Below are positions 23,600 to 61,622 of a stretch of DNA of 64,000 bases, piece after piece (the first letter of the stretch is position 1; each line of letters opens with the position of its first letter). A program made the translations under genes and the position numbers. The DNA is taken from positions 61,400,501-61,464,500 of the forward strand of contig NC_133024.1 in NCBI RefSeq assembly GCF_048771995.1, in the 5' to 3' direction. The notes under the pieces are model-generated. The model was not told where the DNA came from. It was given only the letters and a program-made list of their open reading frames with translations, and did no database searches. The DNA is from Taeniopygia guttata (taxonomy: Eukaryota; Chordata; Aves; Passeriformes; Estrildidae).

Positions 23600-23862
23600 A
23601 ATCATTTAATGGTTTAGGTTGGAAGGGACCTTAAAGATAATCTAATTCCAACCCCCCAGTCATGAGCAGGCACAACATCCACTAGATCAGGTTGCTCAAA
23701 CTCCCATCCGACCTGGCCTTGAACACGTCAGGGACGGGGCATCCACAACTTCTCTGGACAAACTGCCAGTGCCTCACCACCTGCACCGTATTTCTTCCTA
23801 ATATCTAATCTAAACTTGCTGTCTTTCAGTTTGAATCCATCTCCCCTTGTTCTATCATATCC
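23600..23862 (-). mobile_element. CR1 LINE, 3'-end fragment (minus strand)
   Basis: CR1 is the dominant non-LTR retrotransposon of birds and is normally found as 5'-truncated copies that keep only the 3' UTR. Here the plus strand begins with 'aatcatttaatggtttagg' and continues into a 'ttggaagggaccttaaagat' block, the reverse complement of the CR1 3' terminus. It then runs through the typical 3' UTR blocks (near 'gggacggggcatccacaac' and 'tttcttcctaatatctaat') and ends near the block corresponding to 'ccccttgttctatcat'. The insertion is therefore antisense, with its 3' end at 23600 and its truncation point near 23862. Divergence from the remembered consensus is moderate. CR1 leaves no clear target-site duplication, and none is seen. 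Confidence 0.92.
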
Positions 23863-48344: not shown

Positions 48345-48621
48345 GGCAGTGATCTGTACATGGCACTGGTGAGGCTACACCTTGAGTACTGTTTTCAGTT
48401 TTGGGTCGCTCACTAAAAGAAGGACATGGAGGTGCTGGATCATGTCTTGAGAAGGGCAGTGGTGCTGGATCATGTCTTGAGAAGGGCAGTGGTGTTGGGG
48501 GAGGGTCTGGAGCACAAGTCTGATAAGGAGAAACTGATGAAGCTGAGATTTTTTAGCCTGGAGAAAAAGAGGCTCAGGAGGACCTGAGTATATTGCTCTC
48601 TTCAACTACCTAAAAGGAGGT
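48345..48621 (+). mobile_element. CR1 LINE, ORF2 end/3' region fragment (plus strand)
   Basis: The sequence from about 48353 translates to LYMALVRLHLEYCFQFWV, the conserved CR1 C-terminal motif (LYxALVRPHLEYCxQFW). It then carries the CR1 blocks for 'aagaaggacatggaggtgct', 'agggtctggagcacaagtct', 'gataaggagaaactgatgaa' and 'ttttagcctggagaaaaaga', ending at the 'ctacctaaaaggaggt' block. Both ends are truncated: the start lies inside ORF2 and the 3' UTR terminus is absent. A stop (TAA, 48413-48415) and an internal 30-bp tandem duplication break the frame, so it is inactive. It lies about 520 bases upstream of the solo LTR and has the opposite orientation. Confidence 0.9.
48431..48490 (+). repeat. 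Exact 30-bp tandem duplication inside the CR1 copy
   Basis: Positions 48431-48460 and 48461-48490 are identical over all 30 bases, and the following four bases (GGTG) begin a third copy before diverging. Standard CR1 copies carry this segment once, so the duplication happened after or during insertion. Absence of mismatches suggests it is young relative to the element. Confidence 0.97.
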
Positions 48622-55600: not shown

Positions 55601-57178
55601 TTTATTTCAGTGGAGAAAGGCAGAGCAGAGAGAAATGGAGAATATGAAAGCAAAACCACGCTTGCCTCTGAAAACAAAAACCAACCAATCAACCAACCAT
55701 CAAAAAAAAAAATCTTTTTGAAATCAAGATGTAAATTACTTTTACATATCTGTGTGTAAAAGTCATTTAGTAGCCTTTCAATGAAGAGAATTTTCTATCC
55801 TCAGTGAAGTCCACTCTTTAGTTTTGGAAAATGTTTTATTTATTTTTTTAAAATCATCAAGTATTAAGCATATCTGCTCTTTTTTCATATCTTCTGACAA
55901 CTTTAACCCAGCTTTTTCTTCTGGGAGTTGAAGCTGTGTCTGTGTTAGTCCACGAAATGTGCTTGGGTCTGACCCCCATGAGGCCAAGCACAGAGTGCCT
56001 GGGCAGGCAGAGGAACTCAGCAGTTGGAGCAGGGTGGCTGCCTTTGGACTACCCACTCCTGGACACCCTCTGCTCCCAAACTGTGCCTGGGAACTGCAGG
56101 GGGACACTCCAACTGGCACTGGTCCAAACTGTGCTGTAATCAGGTCATTCCAACATCTTAACAGTAGGGATGATCCCTCTTTCCAGGACACAGGACTTCT
56201 TCTAGGCACTGGCCATCTTAGCAATATAGACACAAACAGAGAGTATTCATGATTTTTTGTAGGTCCACTAACTCTCTGGGTCTTAGAAACGGACTTTAAG
56301 TGTTGAAATTATGAGGAGTAACTTTTTGGCTAGTTTTAAGAAGCAAGGCATCCCCTTTTATGTCAGAGGTTGTGCAAACATCAGCTGAGACTTGAAATAG
56401 TGAGACATGCAGGTCACAAAACCCCTGGGATGAACATATGAGTGCGTCAACTCACCCAGGAAGAACTCTGTGCCCCAGTCTTTGTACTTCAGGGCAGTTG
56501 CAGCATCACTGAGAAGCCTAGGCACAGTGGGCTTAGGCTGAGGGTGTATCTTTCCAAATCATACAGCTCTGAGGTACCATACCAGTAATTAGAAAAGCAC
56601 CAACTGTGAAAACACAGTTCACATTTTACCTGATCATCCTCTCCTGCAGAGCTGCAGACTGGTTTGCTGTTCCTTTGAGTCAATCCTGTGTATACGTTTC
56701 TGATGTTTACATCTCAACTAGGAGAATTCCATGCTGGATGTACACCATGTGGCTGCGCTGCCGGAGTCAGCAGCCACTAAAATCCCCAGTCTCCAACATG
56801 GGCCAGAGCCAGATATGAGCAAATTCTTCTCAAGTTACAAGCTGGTTACAGCCAGAGGTTTAATAATGTGGTTTCACTAGGTAATTGTGCTATCCAAGTT
56901 AACTATTAATTAACCTCCCATTAGATGATGTCAGACCTTGCTGCACAAGAAACAACTGCCATAATTGTAACAGTTTTTATTTCTGTGTTGACTGTATTGA
57001 GTATGCACTAAAAAGATAAGCAGGGAAGGATTAGATTGCATTTACTGACCATTGAGCAAATATTTCTTCTATCTTCACTCAGATCTTTAAAAAATCTTAT
57101 ATCTTTGTGAAGGGATTTTATTTTGATTTTTAGCAGAAATGATGATATCCCATACTGCTGTGGCAAGGCCCACATACT
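49697..57178. other. Unannotated non-coding DNA
   Basis: No supported gene in about 7.5 kb. It contains the 11-bp tandem repeat at 51739-51780, short A/T runs (54642-54651, 55590-55601, 55700-55711) and a 151-codon minus-strand frame at 55778-56233 that resembles no family and overlaps plus-strand frames over 55936-56252. Confidence 0.5.
51739..51780 (+). repeat. 11-bp tandem repeat, about 3.8 copies
   Basis: Units start at 51739, 51750, 51761 and 51772. The second and third are identical ('aaaggccaagg'), the first differs at one base, and the fourth is partial and diverging. It is a minisatellite-like micro-expansion. Confidence 0.92.
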
Positions 57179-57234
57179 ACTTCTTCAAGTAAACTCTGTA
57201 CTTTTTTCCCCTCTATATATTCAGTTGATAACAT
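57179..57234 (+). repeat. 56-bp perfect inverted repeat, left copy
   Basis: This segment is the exact reverse complement of 60627-60682 over all 56 bases. It begins 'acttcttcaagtaaactctg' and ends 'cagttgataacat'. Similarity stops at once on both sides: the base before (57178, T) and the base after (57235, T) already fail to match. Comparing further outward and inward by eye gives no alignment. It has no coding potential and is not CR1, MIR or the LTR seen elsewhere. Its nature is unknown to me; options are the terminal inverted repeat of a DNA transposon, a templated insertion, or a constrained non-coding element. Confidence 0.97.
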
Positions 57235-60200
57235 TTTATTTAACAATCTTGAAATGAAATTTTACCTCTTTCTGGCAAGGGCAACACATGCTTGATCTGT
57301 GAAGTGGCAGGTAGACTTTTTTCAGAGATACAAAAAGCCTATTCAAAACATTCCCTTTTCTGATATAATGGGAACATCAAACTTTGCAAGGTAAGGTTTC
57401 TGCTTCTACAACCAAGCTCTTAAAAAATACTAGATCAACAGTTATCTGTTGTTTCCTTCCACTGCTGGGACTTTCTGTAACACAGCTGTATAAAATAAGA
57501 ACATTGTTTCTTCCTGTGTCTGCACCAGTGGCCTTTGTGGTGACCTTTTAGAAATTACAAGGCAGGGTGGTCTGAATGTCACCATTAATTCAGGTTAGCC
57601 AAGAAGCTTCAATGTATGTTACTTCATATGCCCGGCACGACCACAAAAACTCACACTGCCTAAGTCCTGGAATCCCAGGGCTTGTGTGGACAAGTAGGAA
57701 CCAATTTTAGCGGTGCTCCCACTATCCATGTTAGCAGGTTGTTTACCAAGTTATTTTGAGAAACTCATGGGAAGTCAAAGAGCTGAGACAGATATTCAAA
57801 ATAGATGTCTGTCACATAGCATTTGTAGAATTCATTGTCTGCCAGTTACCAGGGAAGTTCCGTAAGCCATGCTGGCAGCATCAGACTTACTGACAGAGAG
57901 ATTAAATACTCATTTTGTAATTAGTGGGAGTATTGCTTTGTTTTTATTGCAGTTATACATAGATGTTCCAACAGAGATTGAGGGCCTCTCTATGATAAGC
58001 ATTAGATTTATGTACCATAATAATTAAAGTTCTTGCCTCACAGTCCTATGGAGGTCATCTGAAGGATGCTGAGAGATTTCAAAACAAATAAAGTGATTAT
58101 GAAATGGATCCACCTTGAGCTGTTCAGCTCCCAAAGTTGCAAGATCAAGTCAAGACCACACACAGAGCTCCCTCTCTCCATGTTGTTTATGAATGGTTTA
58201 CAAGGGGCTCTTCCCAGGGGGCCACTACCACAGGCACTCCAATATTATACCCACTTCTAAAACGGCCTCCACAGAATCGTTATTATGAACATTTTTTCAG
58301 ATGTTATAAAATAACGGCTTCACAGCGAGTTAACTACACTCTAGCTTAGTCAGATGGGGAACAATATAGTTTATGTGCTCTGAGCTTTCTCATGGATTAA
58401 ATTTACCACTTGGTCAGTGGTAGTGCCCCTGTTTGACAGATGTAGGCCATTATTGAACAATTTGGCCTTCAAAACTGTGACTGTATTTGGAAAAGTACTT
58501 TTGGCACAGCTAACCTCAATTTTAGCAGTCCATAATGAAACATGGGAGACCTTCCTTATGCTGACAACAACATGGAATAGGCTACTTCTGAAAGTATTTT
58601 AAAAAATTTGATGAGGAGGACATTATCAGTAGAAAAAAAGGCCCGGTTTGGACTCTACCACACTTCGCTCACTGAGGTGACGGCTTCTGTCAGCTCCTCC
58701 TGAAGATCATTTAATTTACCTGTGTAAAATCCTAGAAATAAGGAGTCATGTTGCTACAGAGTCAAGAGGTGACAGTGCAGTAGAAGCCGGGAGGGAGTGC
58801 TCAGGTGTGACCTCTGGGCAAAAGTGAAAGGGTGGGGCATCTGCTCGTAAGCTGCCTTGTAAGAAAAGACTTTGGCAGCATGGCAGTTTTGGGATGGTGT
58901 TTCAGTACAGAAAACTTGTCATGTACACATATACTTGTATGTACATTGGGATAGACAGGAGGGTCACACATTTGATGGAGACACTTTAGCAGACTATCCA
59001 GTGTACAGAGTACCATGTCTGTGTCACATAAGGGTGTTGGAAAGAGAGGAAACCACTACTCCTCCAGTATACAGGAATCTTCAGCCAGAGCTGGGAAAAA
59101 ATGCAGGCGAGAGCACAGATTTTTTTTCATTTTAATTCACAAGAAGATGTGTTTCTGACCAGAAAGGATGGGGACATCCAAAAATTAGTGGACATGTTGA
59201 AGATGGGCATTTGTAGTCATGACAAGGGGCTATAGAAGGTATGAAGAACAGGGAAAGAAGAGCTTGTGAAAAGTGTTAATTTCATAGTGGGTGTTAGTGA
59301 AACTTGGAAGTACTGGAAAGGAAGAATGAAGACTCCAGTGTCTTAAGGCTAGGCAGAGATGGAAAGGAACAACTGACTGTAGCCAAGGACTGGGAAGAAT
59401 GTGATGTTTTAGGAATGTGACATCAGATACATCCCTGTCCTTGCAGGACACATGTTGACTCAACCTGTGGCCAAGGTCAGCCTTGGTTTGACAAGCACAC
59501 TCCATCATGCATCCTTCCCCCAGTCTTGAAGTGGAAGGAGTTTTCCCTTTGTGATATGTTCTGTGAAAGCTGAAGCTCTCAGTGATCCTGACAGCATTCT
59601 CTCTGAGCATGACCCAGCCTTGTCAGTGAATGCTGAGTTGCAAGGCATGAGGGATGTGGAAGCTAGTCCTGGTCATGCTGGAAAAGGCTCCTCATTGGCT
59701 AAACAAGGCATGGTGTTGAGTATTTGGCATGGAATTCAAGCCATTGACCTTGGGTCACAGCCCCAGAAATAGTCTCCTTCCCATTGCCTTTCCCCAATCC
59801 TCACGAACAACAGCAACCTCCTGGGGTAGAAGATGGGCTGGAAAACAAGACCAGAGTCTTCTGGGATGACAAGGGCAAAGCAGCTCTGGCTGTGCCTGAG
59901 GATATGTTGGCCAGCAGCAGTATTACCAGAGGCCACCCAGGCTGGAGATGTCCTTGAAAGGGTGGTGTGAATGTTAGCTTGAATGTTTCCCCTTCTAGGG
60001 GAGACCTTAATAGCCAGACGTAATCCTTCTATCTCCCTCCCTAGGATTTGACAGCAAAAGGGCGATTTTTAATGCAAACAATTCACCTTTTCAAGTTAAA
60101 GTTTGGGACCAGATCAGCTCCAAACAGTTTTAACATGGTGAGGTGTGTGCATGCATTTAGACATCTTTGTGTTCCCAGCCTCTGACCTTTTTTTTTTTTT

Positions 60201-60626
60201 TTTGCCTATGAAGTATAAGACCAAAGACTCTCTATTGACAATGATTAGAATAAAAGATTAAACTTATTTATATTCACATCATCTTTGTTCATGAGTGCTG
60301 GCTAACACACTGCCACTCTTGGGATGGAGCACAGCAGCCATTTTGTATGCAGGAGATCTTACCAATAATTTTCAAGGAGTGGTAGAAGTGGCAAATAACT
60401 TCCTTAATTGAAAATTATGTGGGAATTTCACAGTGTGCAGAGTATAATTAACCACACTGGAATCTGGCCAAGGAACCAAGGTTAACACCGCTGTACTTGC
60501 AGAAGTGCCACTGGTAAAGCAACACCTCCTGAAAACTTTAGAACCTAATCCATTCCTATAAAATAAATAAAAAGCATGTATTTGAAAGGTGATGTACAGC
60601 TTTTATTTATATTTGGCCATGCCTTC
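57235..60626. other. 3.4-kb interval between the two inverted 56-bp copies
   Basis: No transposase-like frame or other gene is visible between the copies. Frames are short (at most 126 codons, minus strand 59230-59610) and unrecognised. It holds a T16 run at 60188-60203. If the flanking copies were transposon ends, this would have to be a non-autonomous or badly decayed element. Confidence 0.5.
60188..60203 (+). repeat. T16 homopolymer
   Basis: Sixteen uninterrupted T after 'tctgacc'. It is low-complexity DNA; no associated retroposon is identified. Confidence 0.95.
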
Positions 60627-60682
60627 ATGTTATCAACTGAATATATAGAGGGGAAAAAAGTACAGAGTTTACTTGAAGAAGT
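60627..60682 (-). repeat. 56-bp perfect inverted repeat, right copy
   Basis: The reverse complement of this segment equals 57179-57234 at all 56 positions, including a 4-base G-run and a 6-base A-run that would be expected to change quickly. The bases just outside (60626 C, 60683 C) do not continue the match. The flanks on the outer side read 'catact' at the left copy and 'caatga' at the right copy, so there is no convincing target-site duplication. Confidence 0.97.
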
Positions 60683-61395
60683 CAATGACTGAAACAGTCA
60701 ATCATGGCTGTACACTAAAATCAGAGGTATATACAGCTCTTAATGACATACTTTTTTAGTGAATCAAAGTTGAGTTAGTATATTGCATTATGCCAGTTCT
60801 TTATAAAATTGAGCCAAAGTCCTCTAATGTATGCAGCACATTTTATCAAATGTTTAAGAAATATTTGGAAGAGGAATATTGTTTATATAGAAGGAAGGGG
60901 GGAAAAGTAAAGTTGGCAGCATATCACGCAAAAATTAGTTCAGTAAAAGGGGGAAAAAAAAATCAAGCTATGTGCCAGAGTTTCAGTCACAGTCAGATGA
61001 GCTTTTCTGAGCTTGCAAGTACTATACAAATGTGAAAAACACACACTTGGTGCAGGAGGAAGTGAAGAAGGAAATAGCTGATGGAGAAGTTGTGGCTGTT
61101 TATGCCAATGGTGACGCTGCAAGTCAGATAGAAAAAAAGAAGCAAGAAATGAAGTAATGCCTAAAGCCTGGGTTAATCTCTCACATTGCTGGAGCTGTGT
61201 TGCAGATTCTTTAGGCCGTGGTATGGGACAGCTATGGGTCTTGTGGCACAAGTCGTGCTGCTTCTTTTCCAGAGGGAGCATGATTCTCATCATGGCTGCA
61301 ACTCAATAAGCAAGAAAATCCTATGGAAACCATAGGACTTACATTTTCCTGTTGTGTAAAACCTGGACTGGTCATGCAGAATTGGGCGTGACGTG
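60683..61395. other. Unannotated non-coding DNA
   Basis: About 710 bases with two short opposite-strand frames (60790-61035 and 60940-61293) that resemble nothing known. No repeat is recognised. Confidence 0.55.
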
Positions 61396-61622
61396 AATCA
61401 CAGAATCATAGAATTGTTTGGATTGGAAGTAACCCTCCCATCATGGTCATCTTACATTATACCAGGCTGCTCAGTGCCCAGTCCAACACAGCCTTGGACA
61501 CTGTCAGGGAAGGGGCATCCACAGCTTCTCTGTGCAACCTGTCAGGGCACCCTCACAGTAAAGAATTTCTTCCTAATATCCAGCCTAAAGTTACTTCCCT
61601 CAGTTTGAAGCCATTCCCCTTG
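61396..61622 (-). mobile_element. CR1 LINE, 3'-end fragment (minus strand)
   Basis: The plus strand begins 'aatcacagaatcatagaatt', the reverse complement of the CR1 terminal repeat of ATTCTATGA-type units. It then passes a diverged terminal block and shows recognisable 3' UTR segments: 'cagcttctctgtgcaacctg', 'aagaatttcttcctaatatc' and 'gtttgaagccattcccctt'. The copy is antisense, 5'-truncated near 61622, and lacks any ORF. It resembles the copy at 23600-23862 but differs at many sites, so the two are independent insertions rather than a duplication. Confidence 0.9.

Follow-up and report, generated by a model that had tools for sequence, protein, structure and literature searches.

An exact 56-nt inverted pair in zebra finch DNA is probably a recent, two-copy mutational scar

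How does a 56-nt sequence come to stand twice, in opposite orientations and without a single difference, in otherwise unique chromosomal DNA? In the 64-kb stretch of zebra finch DNA analysed here (the window; C1:61400501–61464500), copy A lies on the plus strand at 57179–57234 and copy B on the minus strand at 60627–60682. The two copies are exact reverse complements at 56 of 56 positions and are separated by 3392 nt (57235–60626). The complementarity stops abruptly at both ends of the match, as the initial annotation had described: when the 150-bp flanks of A were aligned with those of B, neither the outer nor the inner flanks scored above shuffled sequences (of 500 shuffles, a fraction of 0.974 did at least as well for the outer flanks and 0.37 for the inner ones). 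Under a low-complexity filter, no other exact repeat in the window, direct or inverted, reaches the length of this pair (the next is a 34-nt direct repeat), and no other inverted one exceeds 20 nt.

Chance had been discounted for a match of this length, and the expected numbers bear this out, with approximately 1e-24 such matches in 64 kb and approximately 3e-21 genome-wide within a distance of 5 kb. Chance origin is excluded. As an empirical control, 25 stretches of 10 kb were drawn from the same genome, 15 of them from the contig holding the window (C1) and five from each of two others (C2 and C3). With the low-complexity filter, these stretches contained 34 inverted exact pairs of at least 14 nt, the longest being two simple palindromes of 18 nt, with none above that length. 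Pairs like A and B are uncommon within 10 kb, the 250 kb of control being too small for a rate. The control also contained tandem structures of its own. One stretch, C1:20000001–20010000, is a tandem array over its whole 10 kb with units of approximately 695–717 bp, in which a shift of 8430 bp gives 99.7% identity over 1570 bp while the other 13 shifts give 92–96%. This array is probably a centromeric satellite, and we take it to resemble the zebra finch 716-bp satellite, for which a literature search under that name found no paper. At approximately 20.009 Mb on C2 (8818–9255 of the control stretch), a tandem duplication spaced at 219 bp contains five exact blocks of 20–72 nt.

The number of copies in the genome bears on whether the pair belongs to a repeat family. 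In the assembly (1,140,912,852 bases in 41 contigs), the 56-mer, searched on both strands with up to three mismatches, has two matches, copies A and B, whereas the initial annotation had named many genome copies as the sign of an ordinary repeat. A search with 57000–60900 (3.9 kb) returned only itself and the two arms; this search skips very common words, so that its counts are lower bounds for repeats and old, diverged repeats could be missed. With two genome matches in unique surroundings, the searches gave no sign of a family of repeats or transposons, in keeping with the view that the copies belong to no recognised repeat. A search of viral contigs with a 28-nt core gave no match.

DNA transposons can have terminal inverted repeats of about this length, and the two 56-mers could be read as the ends of an undescribed non-autonomous element of this kind. 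A DNA transposon or MITE family would be expected to show multiple copies with the same ends, but only the two arms were found, even when the first 24 nt of the 56-mer were searched with up to two mismatches, and the interior has no other match in the genome. The outer flanks carry no matching target-site duplication by eye (the left one ends in CATACT and the right one begins with CAATGA), as had been noted, and the suggestion that no transposase is enclosed agrees with a six-frame Pfam scan of 34–64 kb, which found no domain. We therefore consider the transposon, which the initial annotation had put forward, extremely unlikely. A LINE-mediated (Class 1) templated insertion was also considered and rejected. 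It needs a target-site duplication of at least 5 bp together with poly(A), whereas the slip-ambiguous duplication measures 0 nt at both edges with B as the insert and no more than 1 nt with A, and no poly(A) run was seen by eye at the ends of the copies.

The Pfam scan, in which stops were read as X, gave no match at an E-value of 0.01 (in 49–64 kb, two of the six frames were scanned at 0.001), and Rfam at gathering thresholds gave none in the whole window, from which the locus looks intronic or intergenic. No transposable element or exon was found to cross a boundary of either copy or of the segment between them, as judged by the DNA search of 57000–60900 and by Pfam over 34–64 kb; a crossing feature of this kind would have decided the orientation of the segment. 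Elsewhere in the window, a dispersed repeat occurs in two copies (23673–23849 and 61448–61622) that are 74% identical over 178 columns, and the sequence from 61400, just before the second of them, resembles a CR1 retrotransposon at its 3' end. A short minisatellite at 48431–48498 consists of 2.3 copies of a 30-bp unit with 97% matches.

Given that the copies are identical, their age can be bounded from above. With 0 differences at 56 sites on two copies, and assuming neutrality and no conversion, rates of 1.5, 2.3 or 3.3 substitutions per billion sites per year give 95% upper bounds of 17.8, 11.6 or 8.1 My, respectively. If neutral at these assumed rates, the pair is probably younger than about 8–18 My. 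The initial annotation had attributed the perfect identity to a recent event, gene conversion or selection. The first of these is favoured; the age bound is compatible with zero differences, so that the identity needs no selection. An older inverted pair that conversion or selection has held identical, for example as a paired structure or a binding site, would also show no difference in 56 nt, and template switching is reported in PMC7954356 to perfect near-perfect inverted repeats. Against such maintenance, 56 nt would be short and 3.4 kb far for conversion, no RNA family, protein domain or further copy suggests a function, and identity is expected anyway of an event younger than about 8–18 My. 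We regard maintenance as quite unlikely. An assembly artefact, which the initial annotation had also listed, is less likely still, since an isolated 56-nt flipped copy in unique DNA of a 41-contig assembly would be an unusual assembly error; we consider it very unlikely.

What remains are mutational events, and the pair is most likely the scar of one fairly recent accident, neither a mobile element nor a functional device. With slightly more belief than doubt, we read it as a scar of repair or replication: template switching (MMBIR, FoSTeS or polymerase-theta patching) would have made an inverted copy of 56 nt. During germ-line replication or break repair, a DNA end near 60.63 kb would have switched to the strand 3.4 kb away, copied the 56 nt of 57179–57234 in reverse orientation, and then returned, leaving the inverted copy at 60627–60682. 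The copies would still be identical because, on a neutral clock, the event was fairly recent. Of the four readings that the initial annotation had offered, templated insertion during break repair is the best supported one, by the exact inverted copy, the abrupt ends and the unique surroundings. The pair also has the defining anatomy of such an insertion, an exact reverse complement of a nearby template at 3.4 kb, with one copy probably being the insert; bases shared at the junctions would be hidden inside the 56 nt. For the human germline, PMC8421209 reports inverted templated insertions of at least 25 bp, 103 in one person and 99 in another, from a search for templates within 100 bp, and the template-switch fragments of great apes in PMC7954356 have a median of 12 nt and a maximum of 128 nt. 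Because the template here is 3.4 kb away, well outside that 100-bp range, the rates cited from PMC8421209 do not extend to this distance, which counts against the reading.

The two copies can be compared as candidates for the insert. When the flanks of B were joined without B, eight of 200 shuffles folded at least as well (the join folded better than 192), as against 107 of 200 for the flanks of A joined without A. The 171-nt stretch with copy B in place is unremarkable, with 20 of 200 shuffles folding at least as well. At the outer edge of B, local repeats occupy 60680–60702 on the plus strand: AGTCAAT at 60680–60686, crossing the edge, returns at 60696–60702 as a 7-nt direct repeat, and a hairpin, TGACTG-aaa-CAGTCA at 60686–60700, overlaps both. 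Its 6-bp stem is matched or exceeded in 104 of 4000 random 25-bp stretches. These repeats may be a template-switch scar, being a post hoc observation that is not significant after all tests are counted. Flank similarity was assessed in 48 comparisons, covering the real edges, both empty-site joins and both inversion joins, against 4000 positions chosen at random in the window and in 24 control stretches, the satellite stretch (C1:20000001–20010000) being left out. The smallest p values came from direct comparisons over 60 bp, 0.040 for empty B and 0.045 for empty A, followed by 0.076 for the inverted comparison of empty B over 40 bp, and nothing went beyond multiple testing. These post hoc and weak hints lean toward B (60627–60682) as the inserted copy and A (57179–57234) as the probable source.

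The main rival is an inversion with a duplicated end, a serious though somewhat less probable account. Breaks, one of them with a 56-nt stagger, would have let 57235–60626 flip, and fill-in followed by end joining would have left the flipped segment with the 56 nt at either end, in inverted orientation. Only under this account is the segment inverted relative to its ancestor. What we observe here, single-copy DNA duplicated in inverted orientation at the two ends of a segment, is the signature described in PMC3355041, where the overhang of a staggered break is filled on both sides. Staggered-break inversion thus yields the same anatomy as templated insertion, which counts against the latter. 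Balanced inversions of this order of size are ordinary as well: in 1,019 people, PMC12350158 reports 733 inversions that did not belong to mobile-element events, of which 257 were balanced with a median of 1,565 bp and 277 were inverted duplications with a median of 284 bp. Together with the published templated insertions, these counts make both kinds of event ordinary.

On the other side, we found no positive sign that 57235–60626 was flipped. The segment has a GC skew of 0.066 and an AT skew of 0.019; the GC skew is 0.033 in the rest of the window, 0.075 in the right flank and -0.058 in the 3.4 kb to the left, so that the segment falls within the spread of the window and the skew is uninformative on its orientation. 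The joins rebuilt for two variants of the inversion showed no notable flank similarity (lowest p 0.16) and a microhomology of 0 or 1 nt, which counts neither way because end joining does not require any. The initial annotation had proposed that the pair is a substrate for inversion. That proposal is sharpened here into an inversion that would have produced the pair through a duplicated end, the main rival described above.

Templated insertion is preferred to inversion because one local event suffices for it. In addition, the flanks of B, which are quasi-palindromic, would have lain side by side in the ancestral sequence only with B as the insert. This preference is slight. It is rather unlikely, at the present state of the evidence, that the footprint of the 3.4-kb inverted template switch or small inversion is still segregating in the species; if it is, both haplotypes, ancestral and derived, could be sampled, and their junctions would reveal the mechanism directly. 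By itself, the pair is one neutral-looking scar. More generally, inverted templated insertions over kilobase distances leave identical pairs that are detectable in a single assembly without a relative. Counting such pairs across the genome would yield a rate of template switching at distances beyond the 100 bp searched for the read-based catalogue of PMC8421209.

How the pair compares with known systems follows from these features. The template-switch insertions of MMBIR type (MMB-TIs; PMC8421209, PMC7954356) resemble it in being inverted copies of nearby DNA, tens of nucleotides long, that arose in the germ line. They differ in the distance of the template, approximately 3.4 kb here against the 100 bp searched in PMC8421209 and the short-range switches treated in PMC7954356, and any junction microhomology of our pair would be visible only in an empty site. 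Class 2 templated sequence insertion polymorphisms (PMC5110952) share the templated patch without target-site duplication or poly(A); as described there, their sources are distant and may be copied from RNA, whereas the source here lies 3.4 kb away on the same chromosome. Staggered-break inversions in Drosophila (PMC3355041) likewise carry inverted duplications of single-copy DNA at both segment ends, but those duplications are kilobase-sized and lie in chromosomal inversions, whereas ours are 56 bp around 3.4 kb and the inversion is only a candidate. Microinversions in primates and birds (PMC8755829, PMC3123225) also have inverted repeats flanking a segment, in 59 of 59 human-chimpanzee cases in PMC8755829; the segments of those human-chimpanzee cases measure 17–33 nt, and their flanking repeats are taken as the cause, not the product. 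A literature search with bird terms, judged by title and opening of the abstract, found nothing pertinent. Since template-switch insertion and inversion are both described in animals, copies A and B would be a fresh case of a known mutation kind, and the pair is real, two-copy, probably recent and a scar of that kind.
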